Assembly: GCA_001897355.1 (NCBI GenBank) | Contig: MKST01000002.1 | Span: 27,519-91,518, forward strand | Length of the DNA: 64,000 nucleotides | Reading direction: 5' to 3' | Source: Solirubrobacterales bacterium 67-14 | GTDB lineage: Bacteria; Actinomycetota; Thermoleophilia; Solirubrobacterales; 70-9 | In this document: positions 18,211-38,763 of the stretch, one piece after another | How the letters are laid out: every line of letters starts with the position of its first letter | Numbering within the stretch: the stretch's first letter is position 1 | Position numbers and translations under genes: made by a program | The notes under the pieces: generated by a model | What the model was told of the DNA's origin: nothing | Database searches by the model: none | What the model saw: only the letters and a program-made list of their open reading frames with translations

Positions 18211-20717
18211 TACTCTCCCCCGTTCCCGTTTCCGGCCAGTACTTCCAGCTTCGGGCTCGCCTTGCCGATCTCGACGACCGCGGGCTTTCCGTTCGTGAAC
18301 ACATTGGCGTTGCCCTGCTGGGTTCCCTCCATCAGGAAGCAGGTCCCCTCGGGCAGCGCGGCGCGGACTGCCACGAATGCCGTCACCTCGGTGTCACCCG
18401 ACTTGACCGCAACCTCATCACCCTTGCTCAGGCCCAAGCGTTCGGCGTCGGCAACCGACACCTCGAGACGCTGAGCCGGAATCAAATAGCTGAGCGCGGG
18501 GCTGAGGTCGGTGGTGCTGTTGGCCCACAGGTCGCGGTAGGTACCAAGGATCAACCCGCTGTCCGGACCATCAGCGGGGGTCGAGGGGGGTACCGGCGGA
18601 ACTCCCGGCGAAGTCCGGCCGACGGTGCCCCCCTCGGCCCCCGCCGGAGAGTTCAAGGACCAGGAACTCGCGGCTTCCCTTTCCTGCCACCTGATTCCTC
18701 GACCGCCGATTTCGGCGTCGGTGATGCCGGCGTAGAAGGGGACGGACTCGGTGATGGCCTTGAGGGCTTCGGGTACGGCGTGGATTCCGGTTTCGTGGTC
18801 GAGGGCGGCGGATAGCTCGGCCAGGACGTGCCAGCCGCCGCGGATGTCTCCGGGGCGGGCGGCGGCGGGGCGGACGCGCTGGAGGCGACCCTCGGTGTGG
18901 GTGACCGTGCCGTCCTTCTCGGCGTGGGACTCGAGCGGGAAGACGACGTCACTGAGCTCGGTGGTGTCGGTCGAGGCCATCGTGAAGTGGATCACGAAAT
19001 CGGCGTTCTCCAGGGCCTCGCGCCAGCCTTCGGTGTCGGGGAAGTCGCGCAGCGGGTCGACCCCGTAGAGGACGACCGCCCTGAGGTCACCGGAGGTCAG
19101 GGCTGCCTTGATCTCGTCGACGTCGCGGCCGGCTTCGACCTCCGCGAGGCCGGGGCCGGCGTCGGGCAGGCAGCCGACCTCCCGCAGGCCGCGGGCGTTG
19201 GCGACGTCGGGGATCTCGATCAGGCCGGACTCTTCCTGGCCGGCGAGGTCGAGCGCGGCGGTGAGCTCGAGCAGCGACTCGATCGCGGCCGGGCCGTCTA
19301 CGCCGCGGCCGATCCGCTCGCCCCAGATCACCACGGTGTGGCTGGAGTCCTTGAGCAGCCCGGCGATGCCGTCGGTCGAACCCGACTTGACCTGATCGAG
19401 CAGCCCGGCGAGGTAGGCGGCGGACTGGCCGGGGGCGATCCTTTCCACTTCCGAGGCTCCCCCGTCCAGGGCGGAGGGCCGCTCGGTCGCGACCGCCAGG
19501 GCGGTGCCGTTGCGGCGGACCGCCTTGCGGACCCGCAGGTCGAAGGCGGGCGCCGAGTGGATCGGGTCGGTGCCGAGCACCAGCACCACATCGGCGTGGT
19601 CGATGTCGGCGACCCTGGCCTGGGTGGCGGGGTCGTCGAGGCGGACCCGCTGGCCGCGGCCGATCGTCGGCGCCTGGCGCGAATCGATGTCATTCGAGCC
19701 GAGCCCGTTCCGGATCAGGTCCTGCAGCATGAAGGCTTCCTCGTTCGAAGCGTCACCGACCAGGGCGGCGACCTTGCCTTCGGCGGCCGCGAGGCCGACC
19801 TGTGCGGCTTCCAGCGCCTCGCCCCACTGGGCCGGAACCGGGTGGCCGTCGACGTAGCGGAGCGGATTCATGACCCGGTCCTGCGAGTACATCGCCTGGA
19901 AGCCGTAGCGGCCGCGGTCGCAGAGCCAGCCGTCGTCGACCGCGTCGTTCTCGCGGTCGAGCACCCGCTTGACCTGCTCGTCGCGGATCGTGAAGCTCAC
20001 GTTGCATTGGCTCGGGCAGAGGGTGCAGACCGAACCGCCCTGCTCGATGTCCCAGGGCCGGGCCTGGAAGCGGTAGGTGTAGGAGGTCAGCGCGCCGACC
20101 GGGCAGAGTTCGGTGATGTTGCCCTGGAAGGGGGCGATGTAAGGCCGGTCGTCGAAGGTGCCGATGTAGGACTCGGCGCCGCGCTCGAGCAGCTGCAGCT
20201 GGCCGTCCTCGGAGACTTCCTGACTGAAGCGGGCACAGCGATAACAGAGGATGCAGCGCTCGCGGTCGATCGCGATCAGCGGCGAAAGCGGGACCGGCTT
20301 CTCGAAGTGGCGCTTGGGGTCGACCACGCGGCTGCGGTCGGTACCCCAGCCCATCGAGATGTCCTGCAGCGGGCACTCGCCGCCCTTGTCGCAGACGGGA
20401 CAGTCGAGCGGGTGGTTGACCAGCAGGAACTCGACCACGGCGTTCTGGGCTTCCTTGACCTGCTCGGTCCGGGTGTGGACGACCATGCCGTCGCGGACCG
20501 GGGTCGAGCAGGCGGTCTGCAGCTTCGGGATGCCCTCGATCTCGACCAGGCACATGCGGCAGGCGCCGACCGGGGCGCCGAGCTTCGGCTCGTAACAGAA
20601 GACCGGGATCTCGATGTCGCCCTGCTTGGCCGCGTCGACCAGCATCGCGCCCTCGACCGCCTCGATCTCGCGGCCGTCGACGGTCAGGGTGATCAGGTTC
20701 CGCTTCGGCGCGGGCAT
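18210..20717 (-). CDS. nuoG: NADH-quinone oxidoreductase subunit G, carrying an in-frame R1 element
   Basis: 835 aa, ATG sharing a base with the nuoF stop. The N-terminus binds 2Fe-2S (CYEPKLGAPVGACRMC), then HPLDCPVCDKGGECPLQD and CILCYRC for 4Fe-4S clusters. CTLCPSQCNVSF starts the molybdopterin-oxidoreductase-like domain with the extra N7-type site. Iron-sulfur chain from NuoF to NuoI. Near residues 692-715 the protein contains the Gly/Pro-rich [15 protein letters not shown], encoded exactly by an R1 palindrome (18574-18644). The insert falls just before the C-terminal beta-barrel domain (LEVSVADAERLGLSKGDEV), probably in a linker. The frame is intact on both sides. Confidence 0.95.
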   Translation of the reverse strand: MPAPKRNLITLTVDGREIEAVEGAMLVDAAKQGDIEIPVFCYEPKLGAPVGACRMCLVEIEGIPKLQTACSTPVRDGMVVHTRTEQVKEAQNAVVEFLLVNHPLDCPVCDKGGECPLQDISMGWGTDRSRVVDPKRHFEKPVPLSPLIAIDRERCILCYRCARFSQEVSEDGQLQLLERGAESYIGTFDDRPYIAPFQGNITELCPVGALTSYTYRFQARPWDIEQGGSVCTLCPSQCNVSFTIRDEQVKRVLDRENDAVDDGWLCDRGRYGFQAMYSQDRVMNPLRYVDGHPVPAQWGEALEAAQVGLAAAEGKVAALVGDASNEEAFMLQDLIRNGLGSNDIDSRQAPTIGRGQRVRLDDPATQARVADIDHADVVLVLGTDPIHSAPAFDLRVRKAVRRNGTALAVATERPSALDGGASEVERIAPGQSAAYLAGLLDQVKSGSTDGIAGLLKDSSHTVVIWGERIGRGVDGPAAIESLLELTAALDLAGQEESGLIEIPDVANARGLREVGCLPDAGPGLAEVEAGRDVDEIKAALTSGDLRAVVLYGVDPLRDFPDTEGWREALENADFVIHFTMASTDTTELSDVVFPLESHAEKDGTVTHTEGRLQRVRPAAARPGDIRGGWHVLAELSAALDHETGIHAVPEALKAITESVPFYAGITDAEIGGRGIRWQEREAASSWSLNSPAGAEGGTVGRTSPGVPPVPPSTPADGPDSGLILGTYRDLWANSTTDLSPALSYLIPAQRLEVSVADAERLGLSKGDEVAVKSGDTEVTAFVAVRAALPEGTCFLMEGTQQGNANVFTNGKPAVVEIGKASPKLEVLAGNGNGGE
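18574..18644. repeat. R1 palindromic element, copy 1 (inside nuoG)
   Basis: 71 bp: arms 18574-18599 and 18619-18644 (26 bases each) around the 19-base core AACTCCCGGCGAAGTCCGG at 18600-18618 on the plus strand. Read on that strand the arms form 23 Watson-Crick pairs, two T.G wobbles and one G-A mismatch. It lies antisense to nuoG. The nuoG strand reads it as GRTSPGVP plus Gly/Pro-rich flanks, in frame. Confidence 0.9.
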
Positions 20718-22138
20718 CAGTAGCCGCCTCCGTTCATCGCCGACGGGATCTCCCGGCCCGCGAGACGCTTGCGGCGGATCACTTCCGGGCTCTCGCCGCC
20801 CGGGCCGGGCTGCTGGGAGTCGGGCACGTAGCGACCCGACTGGGCGCCGGCGGATTCCATTACCGAGGCCGACCAGGCCGCGCTGGCCTCGCTGGCGATC
20901 GCCTCTTCGAACTCGTCGCGAAACTTCTTGACCATCGAGCTGACCGGCATCGCCATCGCGTCGCCGAGCACGCAGAGGCAGTTGCCCATGATGTTGTTCT
21001 GGACCGAGGCGATGATGTCGAGGTCCATCGGCGTCGCCTCACCGTTCACGACCCGCTCGAGCATCTTGTCGGTCCAGCTCGTGCCCTCGCGGCAAGGAGT
21101 GCATTTGCCGCAGGATTCGTGCCGGTAGAACTTCGAGGTGCGCTTGGCCATGCGCGGGATCGAGACCGAGTCGTCGGCGACGATGATCGAGCCGGAGCCG
21201 AGCATCGAGCCGGCTTCCGCCATCGCCTCGAACGAGTACGGCAGGTCGAGTTCGGCCGGGGTCAGGACCGGCGAGGAGGAACCACCGGGGTAGAAGGCCT
21301 TGATCTCGCGACCGTCGAGCGGTCCGCCGGCCAGGCCGAAAATCAGGTCGCGCAGGGTCACGCCGAGCTCGACCTCGTAGTTGCCGGGCCGCTTGACGCA
21401 GCCGGAGACCGAGACGACCTTGGTGCCGGGCGACTGCTCGGTGCCGAAGCCCTTGAACCAGTCGGCCCCGTTGGCGACGATGTGACTGACGTTGCTGAGC
21501 GTCTCGACGTTGTTGATCAACGTCGGCCCACCGTAGAGGCCCTGGACCGCCGGGAAGGGCGGCTTCAGGCGCGGGTTGCCACGCTTGCCTTCGAGGGCGT
21601 CCAGCAGGGCGGTTTCCTCGCCGCAGATGTAGGCGCCGGCCCCGCGGTGGACGACCAGTTCGAGGTCGAAGCCGGAACCGAGGATGTTCTTACCGAGATA
21701 GCCGGCCCCGTAGGCCTCCTCGACCGCGCGGTCCAGCACGTCGGCCTGGTCGTCGTACTCGCCGCGGATGAAGATGAAGGCGTGGCCGATCCCCGCCGCG
21801 AAGCTGGAGATGATCATGCCCTCGATCAGCTGATGCGGATTGCGCTGCATCAGTTCGCGGTCCTTGAAGGCGCCGGGCTCGGATTCGTCGGCGTTGCAGC
21901 AGAGGTACTTGGCGTCGTCGGTGTGGGGCAGGAAGGAGACCTTCTTGCCCATCGAGAAGCCGGCGCCGCCACGGCCCCGCAGGCCGGACTCTTCCAGTTC
22001 GCCCACGATCCACTCGGGATCGATTTCCTTCAGCGCCTTCTTCAGGGTCTCGTAGCCGCCGTAGGACTCGTAGCCGGAGATGGTCGCCATCTTCGGATCC
22101 TCGGCGTGGCGGAGCAGGACTCGGGTTTCCTCGATCAC
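20717..22138 (-). CDS. nuoF: NADH-quinone oxidoreductase subunit F
   Basis: 473 aa, GTG start overlapping the nuoE stop by 4 bases. GLRGRGGAGFSMGKK is the NADH-binding Gly-rich loop, CNADESEPGAFKDRELM and IRGEYDDQADVLDRAVEEAY belong to the FMN site, and ESCGKCTPCREG with a later Cys holds 4Fe-4S cluster N3. The C-terminal 50 residues (GAQSGRYVPDSQQPGPGGESP) extend past the usual end and are low-complexity. Oxidises NADH and passes electrons to NuoG and NuoE. Confidence 0.96.
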   Translation of the reverse strand: MIEETRVLLRHAEDPKMATISGYESYGGYETLKKALKEIDPEWIVGELEESGLRGRGGAGFSMGKKVSFLPHTDDAKYLCCNADESEPGAFKDRELMQRNPHQLIEGMIISSFAAGIGHAFIFIRGEYDDQADVLDRAVEEAYGAGYLGKNILGSGFDLELVVHRGAGAYICGEETALLDALEGKRGNPRLKPPFPAVQGLYGGPTLINNVETLSNVSHIVANGADWFKGFGTEQSPGTKVVSVSGCVKRPGNYEVELGVTLRDLIFGLAGGPLDGREIKAFYPGGSSSPVLTPAELDLPYSFEAMAEAGSMLGSGSIIVADDSVSIPRMAKRTSKFYRHESCGKCTPCREGTSWTDKMLERVVNGEATPMDLDIIASVQNNIMGNCLCVLGDAMAMPVSSMVKKFRDEFEEAIASEASAAWSASVMESAGAQSGRYVPDSQQPGPGGESPEVIRRKRLAGREIPSAMNGGGY

Positions 22139-22890
22139 CGGTTCGGCCCCTTTCCTTCGGTCACCCGCGGATCAGACGATTCGGCCACCCCGCCGGCCAG
22201 GCCGCGCTTCTCCAGCGCCTTCTCCGGCAGCACCTCTTCGCCTGCCTCGAGCTGGTCGACGATGGTCTCCGCGTCGGCGTTCTCCAGCGGGCCGAAGTAG
22301 CGCTCGTCAACCGAGGCCATCGGGGCGAGGTCACAGGCGCCGAGGCACTCGAAGCCGGAAACGAGCACCTGCCCGTCTGCGGACAATGCTCCACCGTGGC
22401 CGGCGGCTTCCCGGTCGGCCCCGGTCTTCTCGCAGAACGCGTCGAGCAGTTCGTCGCCGCCCCGCATCCAGCAGGCGAGGTTGGTGCAGACCAGCACCTG
22501 ATGCTCGCCCTGGGGGCTGGTCCGGAGCAGGTCGTAGAAGGTGGCGACCGATTCGAGATAGGCCGGGGTCACCTGCATCACGCAGGCCGCCTGGACGATC
22601 CCCTCCGGGGTGCACCAGCCGTAGCGGCGCTGGATGATCCAGAGCACCGGGATCGCCGCCGACTTGGGCGAGCCCTTGTGGTCGCGGTCCGGGTACTTGT
22701 CGACGATTGCCTGAATCTGCTCACGCAGATCCTCGGGAATCTCGACGTCAGCCGGGTCGGGGATCTTCTCCGGGTCGCCGAGCGGCACCCGACCGGTGGT
22801 ATTCGCTTCATCGACCGGCAGGCCGGGCGAGACGAAATCCTCGGGCGCGGCGTTCTCGGGGTCGAAGTCCGAAGGCATCACGGGGGTCAT
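22135..22890 (-). CDS. nuoE: NADH-quinone oxidoreductase subunit E
   Basis: 251 aa from ATG 22890, which overlaps the nuoD stop by 4 bases. Thioredoxin-fold 2Fe-2S subunit: VATFYDLL, VLVCTNLACWMRGG and FECLGACDLAPMASV supply the four cluster Cys residues (N1a). Longer than the usual 160-180 aa owing to an acidic N-terminal stretch of about 60 residues and a C-terminal tail of about 35 residues. Forms the NADH-oxidising module with NuoF. Confidence 0.94.
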   Translation of the reverse strand: MTPVMPSDFDPENAAPEDFVSPGLPVDEANTTGRVPLGDPEKIPDPADVEIPEDLREQIQAIVDKYPDRDHKGSPKSAAIPVLWIIQRRYGWCTPEGIVQAACVMQVTPAYLESVATFYDLLRTSPQGEHQVLVCTNLACWMRGGDELLDAFCEKTGADREAAGHGGALSADGQVLVSGFECLGACDLAPMASVDERYFGPLENADAETIVDQLEAGEEVLPEKALEKRGLAGGVAESSDPRVTEGKGPNR

Positions 22891-24227
22891 CGGTCGATGC
22901 CTCCCAGGATCGGGTCGAGCATGGCCAGGGTCTGGATCAGGTCGGCCACGTACTCGCCGACCGTCATGTCGGCCAGGGCCTGCAGGTTGACGAAAGACGG
23001 TTCGCGGAAATGCACCCGGGCCGGCTTCGAGGAGCCGTCGGCCATCACGAAACAGCCAAGCTCGCCGCGGGGCGACTCGATCGGGTTGTAGACCTCGCCC
23101 GGCTCGACCCGGAAGCCCTCGGTGACCAGCTTGAAGTGATGGATCAGCGATTCCATCGAAGTCGAGAGCTCGGCCCGCGGCGGCAGCGCGTACTTGCGGT
23201 CGTCGGCGATCCAAGGTCCTTCCGGCAGGCCGTCGAGGCACTGCTCGATGATCTTGAGCGACTCGCGCATCTCGGTCAGGCGGACCCGGTAGCGGTCGTA
23301 GCCGTCGCCGACCGTACCGACCGGGACGTCGAAGTCGAGTTCCGGATAGGCGAGATATCCGCCTTCCTTGCGCAGGTCCCAGGGGTCGCCGGCGGCCCGT
23401 AGCAACGGACCGGTCACCCCGAGTTCGACCAGGCGCTCGCGCGAGACGACGCCGACGTCCTTGGTCCGGATCAGGAAGATCTCGTTCTTGTCGAGCAGCG
23501 CCTCATACTGGTTGATGCCGGTCTTCATCTGCTCGATCAGGGTGCGGACCTTCTGCTCGAAGCCGGCCGGGATGTCCTCGGCCACGCCGCCGATCTGGAA
23601 GTAGCGGGTGTGCATGCGCTGACCGGTCGACATCTCGAAGGTGTCGAGCACCCGGTCGCGATCGCGGAAGCAGTAGAAGTAAACGCCCATCGCGCCGAGG
23701 TCGAGGGCCGAGGTACCGAGCCAGACCAGGTGCGAGTGGAGCCGGTTCAGCTCCATGTGCAGGACGCGGAGCCACTGCGCGCGCCGCGGCACCTCGAGGC
23801 CGACCAGCTTCTCGACCGCGCCGACGTAGGCCTGCATGTTGAAGAAGTAGGAGAGGTAATCCATCCGCTCCACGAACGGGATGACCTTCCAGTACTGCAT
23901 GGTCTCGCAGGACTTCTCGATCCCGGTGTGGACATAGCCGATCACCGGCTTCAAGTCCTTGACGACCTCGCCCTCGAGGTCGACCACCAGGCGCAGCACC
24001 CCGTGGGTGGCGGGATGGTGCGGACCCATGTTGACCGTGAGCATCTCCTGCTCCGGCTCGAGTTCGAACTCGACCCCGGGGATGCGGTCGGCCAGCTCGG
24101 CGGTGAAGTCGGCGACCGTGACCTCCTGGTCGCGGAGCGGCGCCTCGTCGGGCAGCGTCCCGGCGGCGCCGGCCGCGCCGGCCTGGCGCAGCTCGCGATC
24201 GTAGAGGGTGTCCTCGACGCGGGCCAT
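22887..24227 (-). CDS. nuoD: NADH-quinone oxidoreductase subunit D
   Basis: 446 aa from ATG 24227 (TGATG overlap with the nuoC stop); an ATG at 24239 would add four residues. TVNMGPHHPATHGVLRLVVDLEGE has the His residues at the quinone site, and GYVHTGIEKSCETMQYWKVIPFVERMDYLSYF and ESPRGELGCFVMADG match the 49-kDa family. The first 60 residues are a polar extension. Forms the quinone-binding pocket with NuoB. Confidence 0.96.
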   Translation of the reverse strand: MARVEDTLYDRELRQAGAAGAAGTLPDEAPLRDQEVTVADFTAELADRIPGVEFELEPEQEMLTVNMGPHHPATHGVLRLVVDLEGEVVKDLKPVIGYVHTGIEKSCETMQYWKVIPFVERMDYLSYFFNMQAYVGAVEKLVGLEVPRRAQWLRVLHMELNRLHSHLVWLGTSALDLGAMGVYFYCFRDRDRVLDTFEMSTGQRMHTRYFQIGGVAEDIPAGFEQKVRTLIEQMKTGINQYEALLDKNEIFLIRTKDVGVVSRERLVELGVTGPLLRAAGDPWDLRKEGGYLAYPELDFDVPVGTVGDGYDRYRVRLTEMRESLKIIEQCLDGLPEGPWIADDRKYALPPRAELSTSMESLIHHFKLVTEGFRVEPGEVYNPIESPRGELGCFVMADGSSKPARVHFREPSFVNLQALADMTVGEYVADLIQTLAMLDPILGGIDR

Positions 24228-24955
24228 CACTGCCACCAACCCGGGTTGTTGACCTCGTCGCGGGTGAAGATCACCGGTTCGCCACCGACCGGGAAGTCGC
24301 GACGTTGCGGCCAGCCGACGTAGTCTTCCGGCATCAGGATCCGGCGCAGGTCGGGATGGCCTTCGAAGACGATCCCGAAGAAGTCGTAGACCTCGCGCTC
24401 CTGGAAGTCCGCGGTCGGGAACAGATCGACCACCGACGGCATAACAGGAAGCCGTTTCCCGTCCATTTCCACGAACGTGGGGGCGGGGTCCGTGGGGGGC
24501 ACCCCGGGCCGGACTTCGCCGGGAGTTCCCGGGGTACCCCCCACGAACCCCGCTTCCAAAGTAGAAGCTCCCGGGTCTGCAGCGGTCGCCGTTGGGGGTC
24601 CCGACGGAACTCCCGGCGAAGTCCGGCCGTCGGGATCCCCAACGGTGGCCGCCCCAACCTCAGGGTCAGCGATCACGGCTTTTACCCGGAGGCGTTCGTA
24701 GCGTTCGCGGTTGAGGAGTTCGTAGTGGACTGCGAAGCGGGGAGTGTGGGGGAAGTAGTCGGCTCCGTGAACCGAGCTGAGGAAGCCGTACTCCTGGCCG
24801 GGGGTTTCCTTCAGCCAGGTCAGGACCTCCCGGACCTTGGTCGGATCGACGATCAGGGCCGCCTGCTCCCGGTCGAAGCTCGTGTCGAGCACGGCACCGG
24901 GGGTTTCGCGGTTGATCTCGGCCAGGATCAATTCCAGTCCGGGCGCGTCAGGCAC
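24227..24955 (-). CDS. nuoC: NADH-quinone oxidoreductase subunit C, expanded by two in-frame R1 elements
   Basis: 242 aa from GTG 24955, overlapping the nuoB stop by 8 bases. The N-terminal half ([41 protein letters not shown]) and the C-terminal signature (VPSV-like [54 protein letters not shown]) are normal 30-kDa subunit. Between them, about residues 100-160, is a Gly/Pro/Thr-rich insert encoded largely by two R1 palindromes in opposite orientation (24582-24652 and 24484-24552), giving [12 protein letters not shown] and [16 protein letters not shown]. The insert lies just before the usual VPSV-type segment, in a place where NuoC normally has a short loop. The frame is preserved. Confidence 0.94.
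24484..24552. repeat. R1 palindromic element, copy 2 (inside nuoC, inverted relative to copies 1 and 3)
   Basis: 69 bp: 25-base arms at 24484-24508 and 24528-24552 around the 19-base core at 24509-24527, which on the minus strand reads AACTCCCGGCGAAGTCCGG. On that strand all 25 positions pair, two as T.G wobble. Here the core strand is the same strand as the nuoC mRNA, unlike the other three copies. It encodes [16 protein letters not shown]. Confidence 0.9.
24582..24652. repeat. R1 palindromic element, copy 3 (inside nuoC)
   Basis: 71 bp: 26-base arms at 24582-24607 and 24627-24652 around the core AACTCCCGGCGAAGTCCGG at 24608-24626 on the plus strand. All 26 positions pair on this strand, three as G.T wobble. 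It lies 29 bp from copy 2 in the opposite orientation. nuoC reads it as [16 protein letters not shown]. Confidence 0.9.
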
Positions 24956-25658
24956 CGAGCACCTCCCGGGCCTTCGCGTAGGCCTCCAGCGCTTCCTCGG
25001 AAGGCTGCGAGGCGGGTCCGCCACGGGCCCATTCCTCGGTCCCGTGAGCGTTGTAGCGGCTGCGCCAACCCGGCTCGGGGTTGCCCATGATCTTCTGCTG
25101 CAGCTTGGTGAAGCCGTAAAGCAAAGCTTCGGGCCGGGGCGGGCAGCCGGGCACGTGGACGTCGACCGGCATGAACTTGTCGGCCCCCTGCACCACCGCG
25201 TAGTTCTGGAACATGCCGCCGGAGGAGGAGCAGGCGCCCATCGAGATCGCCCACTTCGGTTCCAGCATCTGGTCGTAGATGCGGCGCACGATCGGGGCCA
25301 TCTTGATCGAGACCCGGCCGGAAAGGATCAGCAGGTCGGCCTGTCGGGGCGAGGCGCGGAAGGCCTCGGCGCCGAAGCGGGCGATGTCGTAGCGCGGCGA
25401 AACGGTCGACATCATCTCGATCGCGCAGCAAGCGAGGCCGAAGGTCGCCGGGAAGACCGAGTGGGCGCGGGCCGAGTTGAGCACCTTCTCGAGGGTGGTC
25501 GTGACGACCCGCTCCTCGACGTACTTCTCGAGATCCTCACCGGTCAGGTCGCCGCGCAGCATGTCGCGGGCCTTGAGCTGGCGGGCGCGCAGCTCTTCCG
25601 GGGACTTGGGCTGCTCGAGCGGAGCGTGGACGCGGAGCTTCTGGCGTTCTATCTCCAA
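24948..25658 (-). CDS. nuoB: NADH-quinone oxidoreductase subunit B
   Basis: 236 aa. No ATG or GTG fits the start. TTG at 25658 overlaps the nuoA stop by 10 bases and has AAGGGGG 8 bases upstream, so I take it as the start. [20 protein letters not shown] and [15 protein letters not shown] supply the four Cys ligands of cluster N2, the last cluster before quinone. The first 55 residues and the last 45 ([21 protein letters not shown]) are extensions. Works with NuoC and NuoD in the connecting module. Confidence 0.94.
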
Positions 25659-26029
25659 TCCAGTGCCCCCTTCCGCCAAACGTAGATCAGCGCCACGAAG
25701 AGCAGGGCCACGAAGAGGACCACCTCGGCCAGCACGAAGATCGAATCGGTCGACTTGAGGATCGCCCCCACCGGGTAGAGGAAGACGACTTCGATGTCGA
25801 ACAGGATGAACAGCATCGCCACCAGGTAGAAGCTGACCCCGAAGCGGAAGGTCTTGGAGATCTCCGAGGGCAGTCCACACTCGTAGGGGTCCAGCTGACG
25901 GATCGCGGCACTCGACTCGTCCCCCTTCAGCCGCTTCGGGCCGAGGACCAGGTTCAGGGTCGCGAAGGCTCCACCGACGAGGATGCCGAGGGCTGCGAAG
26001 ACTAGAACTGGGAGGAACTGATGGAGCAA
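25649..26029 (-). CDS. nuoA: NADH-quinone oxidoreductase subunit A
   Basis: 126 aa, TTG start at 26029 with AGGA 7 bases upstream; no ATG or GTG is available nearby. Three helices. [42 protein letters not shown] is the NuoA signature (the YECG loop and the FDIE acidic pair). First gene of the operon, which runs without gaps to nuoN. Confidence 0.94.
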
Positions 26030-26180
26030 GTGTGGATCCTGGTGGGAGGTACAGCGGGGAACTAGGGTGTCCCCTGACTATGGGTTATACACCTCAGAGC
26101 CCAGACTTTGTATCAAGTCGTTACATAGTGATTTTTCGCATAAAAAAGCCGAATTCCGACCCCCTCGGGCGGGATTAGAG
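26030..26180. promoter_or_regulatory. AT-rich divergent promoter region between nuoA and a membrane-protein gene
   Basis: This 151-base gap is the most AT-rich stretch in the area, especially 26105-26150 (runs of T at 26131-26136 and of A at 26142-26147). On the minus strand TATAAC (near 26085-26090) resembles a -10 for nuoA, with TTGATA upstream but a spacer of about 21 bases, longer than normal. For the plus-strand gene no convincing pair of hexamers is seen. The region must carry the nuo promoter, but the exact site is uncertain. Confidence 0.4.
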
Positions 26181-26660
26181 ATGTCCACCGCCTACACAGC
26201 GCTGGGCCTTGCGGTCATCGCCCTCAACCTGATAGCCGGAATCACCGGCGCTGTCGCGTGGCGGCAGGGCCGTCCCTCGGTCGCCTTCTGGTACCTGTTG
26301 CGGGCCGCCCAGATCCTCACCGGGCTCTTCGTGCTCTTCGCCTGCGTGGTCTACGCGGCGGGCGACCGGGCCGACGACGAGCTCCACTACCTCTACGTCT
26401 TCCTACCGATCGCGGTCTCGTTCATGGCCGAGCTGATGCGCGGCTCCTCGGCCAGCCAAGAACTCGGCGACCGCCTCAGCCCGACCGAGCCGAAGACCAA
26501 CCAGGAACTCAGCGACCTCTTCGCCGAGCTCGAATCCGGTCAGCAGGAAACGATCGGCCTGGCGATCATCCGCCGCGAGACCGCGATCATGACCCTCGCC
26601 TGCCTGGTCATCGCCTTCCTGATGTGGCGGGCCCTGGAGACCACCGCCGGGATGTTCTGA
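26181..26660 (+). CDS. Four-helix membrane protein divergent from nuo operon
   Basis: 159 aa from ATG 26181. Hydrophobic segments at about 5-27, 37-58, 68-87 and 135-156 (TLACLVIAFLMWRALETTAGMF) are separated by a polar cytoplasmic-type loop (RGSSASQELGDRLSPTEPKTNQELSDLFAEL). No enzyme motif. I do not recognise a named family. An in-frame upstream start at 26067 would add a poorly coded stretch through the promoter region and is not preferred. Its place opposite nuoA hints at a membrane or respiratory link, but only by position. Confidence 0.7.
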   Translation: MSTAYTALGLAVIALNLIAGITGAVAWRQGRPSVAFWYLLRAAQILTGLFVLFACVVYAAGDRADDELHYLYVFLPIAVSFMAELMRGSSASQELGDRLSPTEPKTNQELSDLFAELESGQQETIGLAIIRRETAIMTLACLVIAFLMWRALETTAGMF

Positions 26661-26666
26661 CCCCGG

Positions 26667-27314: not shown

Positions 27315-27340
27315 GGTCCGAGTGTAACCCGGCGCGCTCG

Positions 27341-28704: not shown

Positions 28705-28736
28705 CGTTTCGCCGCAGACAATATGATGCGCTCGCT

Positions 28737-29189: not shown

Positions 29190-29204
29190 CCGGCGGCGGG
29201 GGCC

Positions 29205-30470: not shown

Positions 30471-31135
30471 GTGGCAGCCGGGTACTGATTTGTGACGACC
30501 ACTGGATCGTAAGGCAGGCGATCCGACAGCAGATCGAGTCGATCCCCGGTTTCGAGGTGGTCGGCGAGGCGGCCGACGGCGCCGCCGCGGTCGCGGCGGT
30601 CGGGGAGCATCGACCGGACCTGCTCCTGATCGACGTCGAGTTGCCGGAGCTGAACGGGATCGAGGCGATGATCAAGGTGCTCGACCGCTGGCCCCATACC
30701 AGGGTGCTCGTATTCACCGCCCACGAGGAAGACGACCTGGTCAGGCTCGCCGCCCGCGAGGGAGCGGCCGGGTTCCTGGTCAAGTCGGCCGACACCGACC
30801 AGATCCGCAAGGCCTGCGAGACGGTGGTCGACGGCGGGCGTTGGTTCCTCCACTTCGACGGCCGGCTGGACGAAGACGAAGACGACGAGCTGCAGCGGCT
30901 CAGGTCGCTATCCGATCGAGAACGCGAGATCCTCTCGCTGCTCGCCAGCGGGATGCGGGCCCAGGGAGTTGCCGACAAGACCGGCCTCCGGCCCACCACC
31001 GTCTACACCCACGTCAGGAACGTTGTCTCGAAGCTGGGCGTCGAAACTCGCACCCAAGCGGTTGCCATCGCGACCCGCTACGCCTTCCTCGACCCAGACC
31101 CGGAGACCCCGGCCACGGGCTCGACGAAGAAGTAG
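30467..31135 (+). CDS. NarL/FixJ-type response regulator (orphan)
   Basis: 222 aa, GTG start overlapping serS by 4 bases. Receiver domain: VLICDDHWIVRQAI (acidic pair), LLLIDVELPELNG (phospho-Asp), VLVFTAHEEDD (Thr) and GFLVKSAD (Lys). C-terminal LuxR-type helix-turn-helix: LSDREREILSLLASGMRAQGVADKTGLRPTTVYTHVRNVVSKLGV. No histidine kinase lies nearby, so its partner is encoded elsewhere. Translational coupling to serS is unusual for a signalling gene. Confidence 0.92.
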   Translation: MSGSRVLICDDHWIVRQAIRQQIESIPGFEVVGEAADGAAAVAAVGEHRPDLLLIDVELPELNGIEAMIKVLDRWPHTRVLVFTAHEEDDLVRLAAREGAAGFLVKSADTDQIRKACETVVDGGRWFLHFDGRLDEDEDDELQRLRSLSDREREILSLLASGMRAQGVADKTGLRPTTVYTHVRNVVSKLGVETRTQAVAIATRYAFLDPDPETPATGSTKK

Positions 31136-31148
31136 ACCCGGTCTCGGC

Positions 31149-31550
31149 TCAGGACTCCTCGAACTCCAGCGCGCAGCCGTTGATGCAATAGCGCTGCCCC
31201 GCAGGCCCGGGGCCGTCGGGGAATACGTGGCCGAGATGCGCGTCGCAGTTCTTGCAGACGACCTCGGTCCTGACCATCCCGTGGCTTTGGTCCTGCCTCA
31301 GCTCGACGTGTTCCAGATTGGCCGGCTCGGTGAAGCTGGGCCACCCGGTGCCGGAATCAAATTTTGCATCGGAAGAGAAGAGTTCCTGGCCGCAACATAC
31401 GCATACATAGGATCCGCTACCCTTATTCGCCAGTAATTCGCTCGTGAAAGGCCGCTCCGTCGCGGCATTGCGGGTTACTTCATACGCCTCGGGAGAAAGT
31501 CTCCCCTTCCAGTCAGTTTCACCCGTGACACGCCTTGGACCGTTCGACAT
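31149..31550 (-). CDS. msrB: Peptide-methionine (R)-S-oxide reductase
   Basis: 133 aa from ATG 31550. SYVCVCCGQELFSSDAKFDSGTGWPSFTEP and VCKNCDAHLGHVFPDGP carry the two CxxC pairs of the structural zinc, and RYCINGCALEFEES carries the catalytic Cys. Repairs methionine-R-sulfoxide in proteins. No signal peptide, so cytosolic. Its start overlaps the divergently read CAP-domain gene by up to 16 bases. Confidence 0.95.
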   Translation of the reverse strand: MSNGPRRVTGETDWKGRLSPEAYEVTRNAATERPFTSELLANKGSGSYVCVCCGQELFSSDAKFDSGTGWPSFTEPANLEHVELRQDQSHGMVRTEVVCKNCDAHLGHVFPDGPGPAGQRYCINGCALEFEES

Positions 31551-32161
31551 TGCCTGAACTCGCTTTCTTTTCGCCTGCTTCAAGACTAGCCAACCGTTCT
31601 TTCCTCCTTCCTGGTCTGGCATTGCTCGCCGTCGTCTTTGCGGCGCTGCTGGTGGGGAACTCGCTGGCCCCGGCCAGGGCTGAGGCCCGAAGCCTGATCG
31701 CTCCCGCCAAAGCCTGCCCCGTCGGCGCCCAAGGGGCCGGCAAGGCCCAGCTGGGCAAAGCCCGGCGGGCGATGACCTGCATGGTCAACTATGCCCGCCG
31801 CAAGAAAGGCCTCTGGCGTTACCACCGCCGTTCCCAGCTCGCCTGGTCGGCCGAGCGGAAGGCCAAGGACATCCAGCGCTGCGGTTTCGCGCACAGCGCC
31901 TGCGGTCGGCAGTTCGACTACTGGATCAAGCGTTCCGGCTACCTCGGCCGCTCCGGCTGGGCGACCGGCGAGAACATCGCCTGGGGCGGCGGCAGCCTCG
32001 GCAACGTGCGCTCGATCTTCGTCGCCTGGATGAAGTCCAGCGGCCATCGTGAGGCGATCCTCAGCCGCACTTACACCGATGTCGGCGCGGGCCTGGTCAA
32101 GGGCCGCTTCGATGGCGTCCCCGGGGCCGGGATCTGGGTCCTGCATTTCGGTCGCAACTGA
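31535..32161 (+). CDS. Secreted CAP/SCP-domain protein
   Basis: 208 aa if the TTG at 31535 is used; a TTG at 31550 is an alternative, and no ATG or GTG is available before the domain. A hydrophobic signal (SFLLPGLALLAVVFAALLV) ends near ARAEA. The CAP domain runs from about residue 75: MVNYARRKKGLWRYHRRSQLAWSAERKAKDI, FAHSACG, ATGENIAWGGG, WMKSSGHREAIL and AGIWVLHFG are the family motifs including the His and Glu pocket residues. Bacterial CAP proteins are exported; function is mostly unknown. Start region is uncertain. Confidence 0.85.
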   Translation: MDRSTLPELAFFSPASRLANRSFLLPGLALLAVVFAALLVGNSLAPARAEARSLIAPAKACPVGAQGAGKAQLGKARRAMTCMVNYARRKKGLWRYHRRSQLAWSAERKAKDIQRCGFAHSACGRQFDYWIKRSGYLGRSGWATGENIAWGGGSLGNVRSIFVAWMKSSGHREAILSRTYTDVGAGLVKGRFDGVPGAGIWVLHFGRN

Positions 32162-32243
32162 TCCAAAACGATCAGACCCGTTTCTCGCGGGTTTAGCATT
32201 GAGCCAACGAGGAGTACCGGACCCCGACCGGAGGAGAAACCGC

Positions 32244-34238
<1,995 letters not shown>

Positions 34239-34243
34239 CCAGA

Positions 34244-34281
34244 GCCCCGCCCAATCATCCGTTGCTTCGCATGGGCGGGGC
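34244..34281 (+). terminator. R2 hairpin, copy C, downstream of acs
   Basis: 10-bp perfect arms GCCCCGCCCA (34244-34253) and TGGGCGGGGC (34272-34281) around the 18-base loop ATCATCCGTTGCTTCGCA. It begins 6 bases past the acs stop and is followed by GGGTT. Arms differ from copies A and B by a compensated pair change while the loop is conserved. It lacks the second hairpin found in A and B. Confidence 0.65.
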
Positions 34282-34297
34282 GGGTTATGCTCGAAGC

Positions 34298-34888
34298 GTG
34301 TCCGAACCGTCCGTTCCGCCGGAGCTTTCCGAGCGGTTCTCCCAGATCCCGAAAAATGAGTCTTCGCCGGTAGTCGGCTACGTCGTCATGTTCATCGGGG
34401 TGGCCATGGTCGCCTACGGGATAACGGCGCTCTGGTTCGGGATGAGGGAGGTGATGGACGTCGGCGGTTACTGCGCCGAAGGTGGCCCCTACGTGATCCA
34501 GCAGCATTGCCCCGACGGGGCGGAGACGCTGATGCTCACCGGGATCCCGATCGGCATCATCGGCCTCTTCGTGGCGATGTTCGGCTGCGCGAGATCCTCC
34601 CCCGGAGCGGTGGCCTTGCTCCTCCTCGGCTGGCCGGCCCTGTTCATCTCGCTCGGCTACAACTTCATCGACTACGCGATCAACCCGCCCGAGAACATGG
34701 GCAGCACCGCCGGCTGGTGGGTCTGCGGGATCGTTTTCGCGCTGATGGGCCTGCCCGCCCTGGCCGGCATTCCCTGGTTGGTCAAGGCGATCAGGCCGGA
34801 TCGCCGCAACGCCATCCTGGCGGTCTTCCTGCTCGCAATCGCTGTCGGCATCGTGATCGGCATCCAGATCGCCAACTCGGTGGACTAG
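34298..34888 (+). CDS. Multi-pass membrane protein of unknown function
   Basis: 196 aa from GTG 34298. A polar N-terminus (SEPSVPPELSERFSQIPKNES) precedes about five hydrophobic segments: VGYVVMFIGVAMVAYGITALWFG, ETLMLTGIPIGIIGLFVAMFG, AVALLLLGWPALFISLGYNFI, AGWWVCGIVFALMGLPALAGIPWLV and AILAVFLLAIAVGIVIGIQIA. An outward loop YCAEGGPYVIQQHC has two Cys that may form a disulfide. No recognised family. Followed by an R2 repeat. Confidence 0.7.
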   Translation: MSEPSVPPELSERFSQIPKNESSPVVGYVVMFIGVAMVAYGITALWFGMREVMDVGGYCAEGGPYVIQQHCPDGAETLMLTGIPIGIIGLFVAMFGCARSSPGAVALLLLGWPALFISLGYNFIDYAINPPENMGSTAGWWVCGIVFALMGLPALAGIPWLVKAIRPDRRNAILAVFLLAIAVGIVIGIQIANSVD

Positions 34889-34905
34889 CCTTCGAAGAAC
34901 CGGGG

Positions 34906-34983
34906 GCGGAGCCCCTCCCAACTATCTGTTACTGCGAGTGGGAGGGGCGGGTTTCCGTTGTCATCCGGCGAAGACCGGATGAC
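34906..34983 (+). terminator. R2 repeat, copy A, between convergent genes
   Basis: Hairpin 1 has arms GCCCCTCCCA (34911-34920) and TGGGAGGGGC (34939-34948) around the loop ACTATCTGTTACTGCGAG. GGGTTTCC follows, then hairpin 2 with arms GTCATCCGG (34960-34968) and CCGGATGAC (34975-34983) around CGAAGA. By eye, 71 of 78 positions match copy B on the opposite strand. It lies 17 bases after the membrane-protein stop and 1 base before the pucR-type stop. Confidence 0.7.
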
Positions 34984-34984
34984 G

Positions 34985-36604
34985 TCAATGATGCAGGAGG
35001 CGGCGGATCATGACCGCCAGGTGCAGGGCGAGGATGGTGTCGCCGTCGCGGAGGTCCACGTCGAGCACTTCCTCGATCCGGGCCAGCCGGTGGTAGAGCG
35101 ACTGGCGTTCGATCTCGAGGGTGGCTGCCGTTTCGGTCTTGCGGCCACCGCTGTGCAGGTACGCCTCCAGCGTGTCCAGCAGGTCGCGGCCCCGTTCCCC
35201 GGGCAGTTCACGAAGGGGGCCGAGGCGCTCGTCACTGAACTGGAGCAGTTCCGGGGTGCCTCGCATCGAAAGCAGCAGCTGGCCGATCTCGGTCCGGCTC
35301 GCGTCATGCCAGGCACGGACCGGGCCGGCCGCCCCCGCCTCGGCCGCGAAGCGGGCCCGGACCAGCGCCGGCGAGAGTTCCTCCCAGCTTCCGGCCGCAC
35401 CGCCGATCGCCAGCGCCACCGCGGCGGGATCGATCTCATGCCGGTTGAGGACGCCGGCGAAGCGCCGGGCCAACCGTTCCCGAGAGGCGACGTCATCCGG
35501 TTCCGACCCCAGAGTGCCCCGGTCGAGCACGCCGAGCACGCAGTTGCCCCGTGACCCGAGCAGGGCTGGCCGGTCCGGTTCCGCCATCGCCGCCCGGATC
35601 GCCGGCAGCAGGGACGCCCAGGCTTTCTCGTAACCGAGGTCATCCTCGATCGCGCCGGTCCGCCAGACCGCCGCGACCGGCACCAGTTGGCCGTGGCGGC
35701 GCGGGAAACCGAGCGTCGAGGCCCGCCGGGCCGCGGCCAGCGGCTCCATCAGGCCGGCCGCCAGTTCGAAGAGCAGGTTGCCGCGCGAGCGGGCCCGGAG
35801 CTCCGCCTCCTCGCCCCCGCGCATCAGGCCGAGGCCGACCGCGACCGAGGCCCGTTCGAGGGCGATCGGGGTGAACCGGTCGAACTCCGCGTCAGTCTGC
35901 AGCGCGATCACCCGGCCCCAGCTCCGGCCGCGGACCATCACCGCCGCCGCCATCGCGCCCTCGGCCTCCCCCGGGTTGCGATCCGACCACTTGAGGCCAG
36001 ACCACGTATCGACCACCTCGTCTTCGCGGCGGGTGACCGAACCGAGGGCGACCAGTTCTCCCCGCGCGTCTTCCAACACGACCGGGTTGCCGATCCGCCT
36101 CGAGACCTCGGCCAGGATCGATTCCGCCGCCTCGCCCTCCAGCACCAGCCGGTCGAGGCTGCGATGGAGCTCCTCGCCGCGTCGGGCGAGCGCGTGGCCG
36201 GAATCGAGCAGGTTGCCGTTGACCACCTCGGAGACCTCGACGAAGCGGATGCCCCGGCGGAAGGCGACCATCGGGATGTGTCGACGGTTGGCCTCGTCGA
36301 CCAGGGCCTTGGGCAGCTCCCGGCTCCAGGCGAAGCCGAGCTCGACCGCGATCCCGACCGCGCCCTCGGCCTCCAGGTCCCGCACGAAGCGCCGCTGCGC
36401 GGCCGCGTCCTCGCCGATCGAGACGCCGGTGGTGAGGATCATCTCGCCGCCCCGGAGCAGGTCGGACACGTCGGGCACGTCGAGGGGATGGACCCAGCGC
36501 ACCTCGGCCCCCAGCCCTTCACGGCCGGCCACGAGTTCGGGCAGCCCGGCCTTGACGATCGGGAGCTCGATGAATTCGGAGACGGTCAGCGACTGCGAGG
36601 CCAT
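34985..36604 (-). CDS. PucR-family transcriptional regulator
   Basis: 539 aa from ATG 36604. Residues 1-125 form the PucR N-terminal ligand domain (SLTVSEFIELPIVKAGLPELVAGREGLGAEVRWVHPLDVPDVSDLLRGGEMILTTG, a near-perfect family start). The middle is a GGDEF-like/CdaR module. The C-terminal helix-turn-helix is YLHSGGRKTETAATLEIERQSLYHRLARIEEVLDVDLRDGD (HTH_30). Such regulators control catabolic genes such as purine use in Bacillus. No clear target operon is next to it. Its 3' end faces an R2 repeat. Confidence 0.88.
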   Translation of the reverse strand: MASQSLTVSEFIELPIVKAGLPELVAGREGLGAEVRWVHPLDVPDVSDLLRGGEMILTTGVSIGEDAAAQRRFVRDLEAEGAVGIAVELGFAWSRELPKALVDEANRRHIPMVAFRRGIRFVEVSEVVNGNLLDSGHALARRGEELHRSLDRLVLEGEAAESILAEVSRRIGNPVVLEDARGELVALGSVTRREDEVVDTWSGLKWSDRNPGEAEGAMAAAVMVRGRSWGRVIALQTDAEFDRFTPIALERASVAVGLGLMRGGEEAELRARSRGNLLFELAAGLMEPLAAARRASTLGFPRRHGQLVPVAAVWRTGAIEDDLGYEKAWASLLPAIRAAMAEPDRPALLGSRGNCVLGVLDRGTLGSEPDDVASRERLARRFAGVLNRHEIDPAAVALAIGGAAGSWEELSPALVRARFAAEAGAAGPVRAWHDASRTEIGQLLLSMRGTPELLQFSDERLGPLRELPGERGRDLLDTLEAYLHSGGRKTETAATLEIERQSLYHRLARIEEVLDVDLRDGDTILALHLAVMIRRLLHH

Positions 36605-36632
36605 GCCTCGAATCGTGCCAGATGCCGGGTGA

Positions 36633-37652
36633 CTAGCTGCGCTTCTTGCGCTTGCGACGCTCGCCCTGCGGTCCGTCGTCGGATCTGTCGGGGGCATCTT
36701 GCGCGTCAGGCGCATCGAGGGCATCGGGAGCGTTGACAGCGCCGCGAGGATCGGGATCGTCCGGGTCCAGTTCGTCAGCGGTGCCTTCGATGACGTCTTC
36801 GTCATCGTCGTCATCGTCGCCGCCGAATCCCGGATCGCCCGGTTTCGGCCAGGGTCTCGCCTCGCCGGAAGCCCAGGCCGGCGGTCGCCCTCCCGGCACC
36901 CAGCCGGCCAGCAGCAAGCCGGCGTAGATGAACCAGATCAGGGTGAAGAGCGTGAAGAAGGCGAAGACCACGCCCAGCGCGATGCCGAGCGAGCCCCAGA
37001 ACCGGGTCAGGAGCCCGGTCCTCATGGCCCAGAGCGAGACGTAGACGACGGCGACCGTGAAGCCGAGCAACCCCGCCAGGCTGATCCCCGTTTCGAGCGG
37101 GGCCAATGAGGCTGACCCGCGGATGTCCTTCGCCTCTTCGTCTTCACAGTCGCTGGTGAAATCGGAGCGCTCTTCGTCGGTGACCGCGCCGCCCGTGTCG
37201 GAAGAGCCGGTCGCCTCGGTCTGGTCGGCAACCTTGTCGGCCACGCATTTCTCGATCGTCGCGTGGTCGACGTCCTTGAAATCGGTGGCCGCCTGCAGGA
37301 TCGAACCGGCACTGACCATGCTGCCGGCGCCGATCAGGATCGGGGCGATGACCATGACCCCGATCAGGGCGCGGCGCACCTGGGGCGCGCGGGCGGCAGC
37401 GGCCCGGAAGAGGAAGACCAAGGGGACCGCGAGCAGCGACCAGCCGAGGAATTGGCCGAAGCTGGCCAACAACAGGCCAGACCGGTCGCCATCGACCTCA
37501 CGCAACCGCTCGGCCAGGCCCGATGCGGCCCGGACCGCGGCCGAGGAATCGCTGTACGTAGCGAGGATGACCGCGACCCCCATCACCGACGCGATGCCGG
37601 CGACCAGGGACCAGCGCTTCTCGCGCTCGAGTATCTGGGCTTTGGGAGTCAT
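36633..37652 (-). CDS. Membrane protein with acidic low-complexity tail
   Basis: 339 aa. Hydrophobic helices at about 18-36, 66-84, 95-117, 195-215 and 220-250, with a loop containing two Cys (CVADKV and DCEDEE) between. The last 85 residues are an acidic, probably disordered tail: a run GDDDDDDEDV, Asp/Pro/Ala repeats (APDALDAPDAQDAPD) and a basic end RRKRKKRS. No catalytic motif and no named family recognised. It lies 28 bases before the PucR gene and may share its transcript. Confidence 0.7.
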   Translation of the reverse strand: MTPKAQILEREKRWSLVAGIASVMGVAVILATYSDSSAAVRAASGLAERLREVDGDRSGLLLASFGQFLGWSLLAVPLVFLFRAAAARAPQVRRALIGVMVIAPILIGAGSMVSAGSILQAATDFKDVDHATIEKCVADKVADQTEATGSSDTGGAVTDEERSDFTSDCEDEEAKDIRGSASLAPLETGISLAGLLGFTVAVVYVSLWAMRTGLLTRFWGSLGIALGVVFAFFTLFTLIWFIYAGLLLAGWVPGGRPPAWASGEARPWPKPGDPGFGGDDDDDDEDVIEGTADELDPDDPDPRGAVNAPDALDAPDAQDAPDRSDDGPQGERRKRKKRS

Positions 37653-37704
37653 TTGCGAAATGCCGGACCGGAACCGGCCGGAGGCCAGCGAAGCCTACCG
37701 GCGC

Positions 37705-37878
37705 TCAGGCCGCGGGGCTTTCCTGATCGTCCTCGTCACGGACCGGGTAGTACTCGTAATCGACCGGCTCGGCGATGCGGGAGATCCGCTCACCGACCGA
37801 AAGGACGAGGTCGAGCAGGGGTGAAACGGCGACGATCGCCGATTCGATCTTCCCGGCGGCAGGGTCAGGTGCATCCAT
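37705..37878 (-). CDS. Small hypothetical protein (57 aa)
   Basis: Reads ATG 37878 to TGA 37705, 57 codons: MDAPDPAAGKIESAIVAVSP, then an amphipathic LLDLVLSVGERISRIAEPV, then DYEYYPVRDEDDQ. The composition looks like a real acidic protein: it has a coherent helix and an aromatic patch, and it fills an otherwise empty gap. It starts 28 bases from the divergent GTG at 37907. No strong ribosome site is visible. Function unknown. Confidence 0.5.
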   Translation of the reverse strand: MDAPDPAAGKIESAIVAVSPLLDLVLSVGERISRIAEPVDYEYYPVRDEDDQESPAA

Positions 37879-37906
37879 TGGTCAATACGCTACAGAGACC
37901 TTGGCC

Positions 37907-38671
37907 GTGAATCTCCCCCACGTTCCCCTCGAAGCCGGGGCCAGCCCCGAGAACCCGCCCTGCCCGGCCTGCGGCGAGCCGCTCTTCCCCTGGGTCGGCA
38001 TGCCGGTCGCCTCGGGGATCGCCCACCGCTGCGAGGCCTGCGGGCTCGGCGTGCTCAGTCACGGCGAGAAGTTCGACTTTCCGCGTAGAGCGGGCGAAGA
38101 CGAGGCGGAGGCACCGGTGGGGGGTGCCCCCGGCCGGACTTCGCCGGGAGTTCCGGGGACACCCCCCACCGGCACCTCCGCTGACGTAGTCGTCGACAAT
38201 TCATTCGATCCCGGGACGGCTGAGGATGCGCTCGCTGAGTTGGAGTTGGATCGGGATGGGGATGGCTCTTATCTGTTCGACAACCGGGCTTCGTTCGCTT
38301 GCTGGCTGACCGGTGGGGCCTGGGCCGGGTTGGGCACCGACCGTCGTTACCGGTTCACGCCCCACGCGGTCACCGACCTGGTCGCGAGCCGCGACCAGGT
38401 GGTCACCCGGACCCGGCAGCGGCCGCTGCGTGGCATCGCGGTCATGTGGCAGTCGGGGTTGAACATGTTCACCTTCGGCCAGAACATCGTCATGGGCGCC
38501 TTCGGCAAGGCGCACAGGGTCGAGGGCGACCGGCCCTGGAAGCGTGGGCTCGACTGGTTCATCTCGATCGCCGTGGCGATTCCCGCGATCGTCGTCGCCG
38601 TCCCGTTCGAGCTGATCGCGATCCTCTTCCGGCGCGGCGCCGCCAGCAGAGCCGAAATCCAGGTTCTCTGA
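37907..38671 (+). CDS. Zinc-ribbon membrane-anchored protein carrying an in-frame R1 element
   Basis: 254 aa from GTG 37907. An N-terminal rubredoxin-like zinc ribbon (CPACGEPLFPWVG then HRCEACGLGVL) precedes a Gly/Pro-rich linker at about residues 67-92 ([20 protein letters not shown]) encoded by the R1 element at 38105-38181. The rest includes SYLFDNRASFACWLTGGAWAG and a helix pair near the C-terminus (WFISIAVAIPAIVVAVPFELIAILFRRG). The middle domain is not recognised; a methyltransferase-linked role has no support. It ends 14 bases before an R2 repeat. Confidence 0.7.
   Translation: MNLPHVPLEAGASPENPPCPACGEPLFPWVGMPVASGIAHRCEACGLGVLSHGEKFDFPRRAGEDEAEAPVGGAPGRTSPGVPGTPPTGTSADVVVDNSFDPGTAEDALAELELDRDGDGSYLFDNRASFACWLTGGAWAGLGTDRRYRFTPHAVTDLVASRDQVVTRTRQRPLRGIAVMWQSGLNMFTFGQNIVMGAFGKAHRVEGDRPWKRGLDWFISIAVAIPAIVVAVPFELIAILFRRGAASRAEIQVL
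38105..38181. repeat. R1 palindromic element, copy 4 (inside zinc-ribbon gene)
   Basis: 77 bp: 29-base arms at 38105-38133 and 38153-38181 around the core at 38134-38152, which on the minus strand reads AACTCCCGGCGAAGTCCGG. On that strand all 29 positions pair, three as G.T wobble. Antisense to the host gene, which reads GRTSPGVP as in nuoG and nuoC copy 3. These are the longest arms of the four copies. Confidence 0.9.
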
Positions 38672-38685
38672 GCAAGCATCCGCAT

Positions 38686-38763
38686 GTCATCCGGTCTTCG
38701 CCGGATGACCACGGAAACCCGCCCCTCCCACTCGAAGCAAAGGATGGTTGGGAGAGGCTCCGC
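38686..38763 (-). terminator. R2 repeat, copy B, downstream of degenerate hydrolase gene
   Basis: Minus-strand copy of the 78-base R2 unit. Hairpin 1 pairs 38749-38758 with 38721-38730, one pair being a G.U wobble on the minus strand, around the loop ACCATCCTTTGCTTCGAG. Hairpin 2 (38686-38709) has perfect 9-bp arms. It begins at the last base of the hydrolase stop codon and ends 14 bases from the zinc-ribbon gene. Confidence 0.7.

Follow-up and report, generated by a model that had tools for sequence, protein, structure and literature searches.

An in-frame hairpin repeat with a conserved AACTC bulge, apparently mobile, in genes of Solirubrobacterales

The stretch of DNA analyzed here (hereafter "the window") comprises 64,000 nt of contig MKST01000002.1 from Solirubrobacterales bacterium 67-14. 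Within its open reading frames are four copies of a small palindromic element, here called the AACTC hairpin. The core of the element, AACTCCCGGCGAAGTCCGG, has four exact matches in the 64-kb window, at 18600-18618 (+), 24509-24527 (-), 24608-24626 (+) and 38134-38152 (-), and each is flanked by paired arms. With up to three mismatches allowed, the chance expectation is a mean of 0.09 matches in the window, and none of 100 shuffles reached four. The elements and their host open reading frames (ORFs) are listed below; genomes used for comparison carry G numbers.

18210..20717, minus strand: host gene nuoG, 835 aa, identified by Pfam
18574..18644, core strand plus: element 1, 26-bp arms and 19-nt core; antisense in nuoG, with the Molybdopterin domain on one side and Molydop_binding on the other (Pfam)
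24227..25024, minus strand: host gene nuoC, 265 aa, identified by Pfam; Complex1_30kDa match split into two stretches; empty site in G013
24483..24553, core strand minus: element 2, sense in nuoC, encodes TPGEVRP
24582..24652, core strand plus: element 3, antisense in nuoC, encodes GRTSPGVP; forms an inverted pair with element 2
37775..38671, plus strand: host ORF of element 4, 298 aa, no Pfam match
38108..38178 (38105-38181 with 29-nt arms), core strand minus: element 4, antisense in the 298-aa ORF above

A first-pass annotation, made from the letters of the window, had described four elements with a common 19-base core between complementary arms, and its coordinates hold to within 1-3 bases (26-nt arms). 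As it had also stated, the reading frame is open through all four. Relative to the gene, three are antisense (GRTSPGVP) and one is sense (TPGEVRP). NuoG and NuoC were confirmed as hosts by Pfam, but the zinc-ribbon identity it had given to the third host found no Pfam match. A search of the window against Rfam at the gathering score returned no matches, which disfavors a known RNA family there.

Folding of either strand, whether as RNA or as DNA, gives hairpins for all four elements (RNA z -5.3 to -8.3). On the core strand, the fold consists of 26-bp arms, an asymmetric 5′ bulge of five bases (AACTC), and an inner hairpin, CCGG-CGAAGT-CCGG. As DNA, the sequence GCGAAGC forms a mini-hairpin of great stability. 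Elements are about 71 nt long in the window and about 68-126 nt in bulge-bearing relatives, and matches to a covariance model of the element span 65-130 nt.

The bacterium's own genome (3.23 Mb in 12 contigs) holds 11 matches to the core at three or fewer mismatches, seven exact and four with three mismatches, as against two for a reversed control pattern. The search of the genome and its relatives proposed in the first-pass annotation thus found that the core recurs elsewhere in the genome. Seven of the 18 genomes of the genus contain the exact core (G000, G003, G005, G007, G009, G010, and G013), and it occurs in no genome of another genus among the 50 family genomes scanned. A scan of named genomes returned 14 exact-core stretches: 12 belong to Solirubrobacterales metagenome-assembled genomes (MAGs) and one to an Actinomycetota MAG, and the last, which is gammaproteobacterial, lacks arms. 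The covariance model reaches further, with matches in 26 of 50 family genomes and 3 of 12 genera at E ≤0.1, and in 24 of 232 order genomes and 4 of 54 genera at E ≤0.001 with stricter filters. Three of the 26 matching family genomes (G006, G008, and G037) have bulge-less matches only. Carriage by phages or plasmids is disfavored, as the exact core was absent from viral_contigs and one element had no phage or plasmid match at E 0.01. Two exact-core copies in G005 lie at contig ends (G005:C23:14-32 and G005:C143:22-40), so assemblies may break at the palindromes, and true copy numbers may be higher.

In total, 77 complete elements were collected (19 exact-core copies and 58 model matches), of which 67 were kept. 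Nine were dropped because they lack the bulge motifs (G006, G007b, G007c, G005e, G008a, G008b, G032e, G037a, and G037b) and one, from G012, because its fold differs. The alignments leave out the two G005 copies cut by contig ends, a one-mismatch copy in G003, and the single extra-family match (G071). Wobble counts used 66 copies (the 67 less L015), and counts of flanks, end tags, and tip lengths used 67.

The arms of the hairpin covary. Across the 19 exact-core copies, 95.6% of cells are paired, and two-sided changes occur at 19 of the 26 arm pairs. Two-sided change cells number 77, compared with 23.8 in shuffles (none of 500 reaching 77) and 5-17 when the alignment is slid by one to three columns. 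The inner stem is invariant in these copies, so covariation there concerns the arms only. The first 17 exact-core copies, detected by pattern and independently of the covariance model, show pairing that falls off beyond arm position 26: this position is paired in 17/17, position 27 in 10/17, and position 28 in 2/17. Among the 67 folded rows, 37 have arms of 25-27 bp (range 12-40, although chance pairing can lengthen them), and in all but one the inner part measures 16 to 74 nt. The bulge is AACTC in 54 of the 67, followed by AACCT (six), CACTT (three), AGCTC (two), TACTT (one), and TACTC (one). Nineteen of the 54 are exact-core copies, which have AACTC by definition; the other 35 are among the 58 model matches. 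CGAAG occurs in the tip of 36 of the 67, and of 17/48 outside the exact-core set. A palindrome of another type was also seen at L127, L129, L130, and L131 (from G007, G005, and G008), with arms resembling those of the main family and a centre like GACTGGG(A/T)CTGTGCACACCAAG. It has no AACTC bulge and is absent from the window.

Imperfect pairs in the arms are asymmetric between strands. On the core strand of the exact-core set there are 35 G·T and 5 A·C wobbles (relative to the gene, 21 and 1 for antisense copies, 14 and 4 for sense copies). Over 66 copies, the wobble cells number 84 G·T and 21 A·C; taken copy by copy, G·T is in excess in 41, A·C in eight, and 17 are tied. Since each A·C reads as G·T on the complementary strand, the strand that pairs goes with the element rather than with the host gene: what folds is a strand of the element and not the host mRNA.

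Host genes in the genus confirmed by Pfam are those for NuoG, NuoC, NuoF, DnaX, an E2 acyltransferase, and rpS5; the other hosts in g1 were assigned by sequence similarity. The matches in g9 and g11 fall within ORFs bearing CysS, MurC, Lhr, and GMC matches. Others fall in ORFs that match short-chain dehydrogenase, GcvT, and GNAT; there, the element stands ahead of the first domain and may lie upstream of the true start. Many candidate host ORFs had no Pfam match. Sites in NuoG (637-723), DnaX (376-484), and E2 (417-486) lie between domains, the site in rpS5 lies in the tail (after 168), and those in NuoC, MurC, and Lhr lie inside the domain match.

Host ORFs of the genus contain 33 bulge-bearing copies, and every one keeps the frame and is free of stops; one of these ORFs (that of element 4) is without an assigned function. 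The inner length is 1 mod 3 in 33/33, by definition so for the 19 exact-core copies. The free test of frame comes from the other bulge-bearing copies in host genes, in which the tip is 19, 25, 28, or 49 nt long and thus 1 mod 3 in 14/14, compared with 3/10 for copies not placed in a gene. In either orientation, a single reading phase serves all 19 exact-core copies, though other frames are often open; for five of them the host frame was chosen by homology rather than as the longest ORF. Ten of the 19 are antisense to the gene. Where two copies share a gene, seven of nine pairs are in opposite orientation, each with the antisense copy first, though some of these pairs may be orthologous.

Comparison of orthologous sites revealed both filled and empty forms. 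Anchors could be matched for NuoC in 6 of 34 genomes and for NuoG in 13 of 34. The first-pass annotation had named, as a finding that would speak against mobility, the same peptide at this place in all distant orthologues but no palindrome; NuoC of G013 and G026 has no insert, with 87 and 84 nt between the anchors, versus 282 in G000, 216 in G007, and 300 in G010. NuoC of G008 has 225 nt and extra sequence without a recognizable element. At the NuoG site, the exact-core copy is antisense in G000 and sense in G009, and G005 has both; G010 and G013 have other tips, G007 a decayed copy, and G008 none. Of 11 Lhr loci, 10 could be read. The inter-anchor length is 63 nt in G036 and G037, 66-75 nt in three others, and 120-129 nt in five, where the element is present whole or decayed, so some insertions are older and shared. 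No target-site duplication was seen by eye in the flanks, and filled and empty pairs are too distant for comparison.

Copies were also compared by arm identity, using 33 genic copies. Those in different genes of the same genome share on average 36.6 of 52 arm positions (51 pairs), a value reached by 9 of 2000 shuffles of the genome labels. Those in one gene across different genomes share 34.4 of 52 (87 pairs), reached by 282 of 2000. Thus, copies within a genome are more alike than label shuffles, and same-gene copies across genomes are not clearly so. In G010, the nuoG and nuoC copies differ at 1/52 arm positions and one tip base.

No obvious source of movement was found. A Y1 (RAYT-type) transposase was detected in one of the 18 genus genomes (G012, without the exact core) and in none of the other 17 drafts, and a reverse transcriptase (RVT_1) again in G012 only of the 18. 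With the drafts 73-96% complete, failure to detect either gene is no proof of its absence. The rarity of RVT_1 disfavors an element borne by reverse transcription, such as a retron, group II intron, or diversity-generating retroelement.

Several other repeats were noted. At 34906-34983 and 38686-38763, the window carries another repeat, made of two hairpins and present as 91% complementary copies; its tip, CCGGCGAAGACCGG, is similar to the core CCGGCGAAGTCCGG. Many of the matches to it are of half length; they number at least 40 in G000, at least 40 in G010, 22 in G005, 13 in G008, 11 in G009, nine in G003, seven in G013, two in G007, and one in G011, with none in the other nine genus genomes; it is present in all seven exact-core carriers. 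In the 22 copies viewed, the stem of the second hairpin varies and the tip is kept in several. G011 has tandem arrays of half AACTC hairpins (one arm, bulge, and tip) spaced about 67-101 nt apart (L080:1190-1660; L081:1500-1770, 2630-2900). They lie 3′ of tRNA-Lys and tRNA-Leu and also beside an apparent 3′ fragment of tRNA-Leu, and both arms occur only in the tRNA-proximal unit; an intervening ORF looks Fic-like by eye. A search of the family genomes with the exact array pattern found arrays in G011 only, and two matches in g9 look unrelated. Elsewhere in the window, perfect palindromes at 9496-9572 and 10627-10669 (35-nt and 18-nt arms, 7-nt loop, GAGGTTGAAGTTATTCGC in common) lie between long ORFs and are terminator-like. 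Long direct repeats at 5240-6351 and 7161-8272, 74-84% identical and spaced 1921 bases, look like a tandem gene duplication.

The AACTC hairpin can be compared with several known systems. The palindromic elements of Rickettsia (RPEs) and Wolbachia are likewise palindromic, dispersed, in frame in unrelated genes, and tolerated by the protein (PMC6649704, PMC10969869). The likeness to RPEs drawn in the first-pass annotation holds for the in-frame palindrome in unrelated genes and for empty orthologous sites in relatives (NuoC and Lhr), but not for size, about 71 nt versus about 150 bp (PMC10969869). The Actinomycetota host, conserved asymmetric bulge, and covarying arms also set it apart from RPEs as described. 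RPE arms are reported to lose identity over time (PMC6649704). The coding palindromes of Nematomorpha mitochondria are also inside functional coding genes, including those of complex I, but there both arms encode conserved protein (PMC6649704), whereas the AACTC hairpin is an addition to a linker or loop. Bacterial miniature inverted-repeat transposable elements (MITEs) are small, non-autonomous, palindromic, and dispersed, and have conserved terminal repeats. By contrast, the arms of the AACTC hairpin vary and covary, the centre is conserved, and there are no conserved terminal inverted repeats. Integron attC sites are imperfect hairpins, partly unpaired and variable at the tip, that are used as one strand; the AACTC hairpin is like them in hairpin form, but its conserved part is central. 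Among the papers listed by literature searches, which mostly did not cover subscription papers, none dealt with such repeats in Solirubrobacterales or with this architecture, and in these searches we found the family described nowhere.

The copies of the AACTC hairpin are dispersed in unrelated genes, present in some relatives and absent from others, retained in frame, and biased in pairing toward the core strand. An alternative is that covariation is a by-product of replication, with template switching in a quasi-palindrome and no selection on the hairpin, and that copies spread by ectopic recombination between linkers. Template switching has been proposed to keep palindromes perfect (PMC6649704), and the G010 nuoC and dnaX pairs have part of the spacer in common, as expected under ectopic exchange. 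Among the four closest same-site pairs between genomes, dnaX of G000 and G009 fits this idea with two compensated and two one-sided changes, but the other three are mostly one-sided (compensated/one-sided 0/2, 1/4, and 0/7), in a small, non-independent sample. The compensated share is 0.37 in ten close same-site pairs, 0.52 in 14 same-genome pairs, 0.43 in 60 other pairs, and 0.66 in distant pairs; given the same small sample, pair changes lean toward decay in place and selection at movement. Moreover, correction by template switching should leave Watson-Crick pairs, and it predicts neither a conserved bulge nor a core strand with excess G·T whichever way the gene is oriented. Template switching could cover much of the covariation but not readily the strand bias and bulge, and we regard this explanation as unlikely. 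That the hairpin is an mRNA structure regulating or pacing translation of the host gene is suggested by the recurrence of NuoG, NuoC, DnaX, and E2 as hosts and by the very stable folds, though both strands fold. However, in the antisense copies, the majority of the exact-core set, the mRNA would bear A·C in place of G·T, orientation at the NuoG site differs between species, and close relatives have NuoC without the element, all of which make this quite improbable.

Repetitive extragenic palindromic (REP) elements, in a GTAG family moved by REP-associated tyrosine transposases (RAYTs) and a CGTC family, are also small hairpins that form inverted pairs, and some lie inside genes; a RAYT cleaves single-stranded REP DNA (PMC3733652). 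Near the element ends, GACG, the complement of the CGTC tag, is found 5′ in 6/67 and 3′ in one, and CTAC 3′ in 4/67, each against 1.8 expected, but GTAG is found 5′ in 3/67 and CGTC in two at either end, so that no tag exceeds 6/67. The arms are about 26 bp long, compared with 8-9 bp for CGTC-family stems (PMC3733652), and the only genus genome with a Y1 transposase is no exact-core carrier, albeit among incomplete drafts; a REP-type repeat moved by a RAYT is thus very improbable. Ribosomal bypass of inserts has been reported for Magnusiomyces mitochondria (mentioned by PMC6649704) and would account for palindromes inside essential genes. Under such bypass, the kept frame and absence of stops in all 33 genus copies would be needless, and we give this explanation hardly any weight.

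As far as sequence comparison can tell, the repeat is real and is mobile in an evolutionary sense. The mobile, protein-tolerated repeat of the first-pass annotation is thus borne out by the unrelated host genes, the presence and absence at NuoC and Lhr, and the likeness within genomes; the bulge, covarying arms, strand asymmetry, wider family with other tips, and single phase of exact-core copies go beyond it. The best explanation, which we consider probable, is a non-autonomous mobile DNA element that moves as a folded strand and is kept where the frame survives. It would move as a folded single strand of core polarity, probably DNA, and a hypothetical trans-acting enzyme would recognize the hairpin at the bulge, with element ends set by arm length. 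Arm sequence would be free to differ while pairing holds, the bulge and its neighborhood being kept. Copies that break the frame or fall in domain cores would be lost, leaving survivors in linkers, loops, and tails, and the surviving phase would encode a spacer rich in Gly, Pro, Ser, and Thr. A more specific version is possible, and we offer it tentatively: a transposable element whose identity lies in shape and not in terminal sequence, a single-strand hairpin read at the asymmetric AACTC bulge, with a ruler of about 26 bp fixing the ends, whose arms drift while paired, and which in one genus became adapted to coding (in-frame tips and one benign phase) and repeatedly built linkers in core complexes.

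Several observations weigh against the mobile element. The own genome holds just seven copies, and sharing between species is partly vertical, as insertions in Lhr, MurC, and some in NuoC are common to species and so partly inherited, which the first-pass annotation had not described. Neither target-site duplication nor a sharp boundary was established. Shared descent inflates the wobble counts (15 G·T versus 4 A·C distinct column types), and six of the eight copies with A·C excess come from g9 relatives. The model has 26-bp arms of its own, so constant arm length among its matches is partly ascertainment, and 9/58 model matches carry none of the six bulge motifs. No mobilizing gene was found; the 20 of 53 neighboring ORFs scanned, beside copies outside recognized genes, included no recognizable transposase, and three had no match at all.

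On balance, the AACTC hairpin is best read as a selfish hairpin that works like RPEs, the likeness being one of function, in which it comes closest to RPEs and to genic REPs. Rickettsia and its kin provide the best-known in-frame selfish palindromes, with some genic REPs elsewhere, and the Actinomycetota set suggests that the in-frame route is more general. Compensatory upkeep of the hairpin, together with the strand bias, offers a handle on how such elements move, and the copies in complex I, the clamp loader, and E2 enzymes are natural experiments on linker growth. The repeats appear to have spread into essential genes with the frame intact, a rarely seen way for parasitic DNA to extend working proteins.

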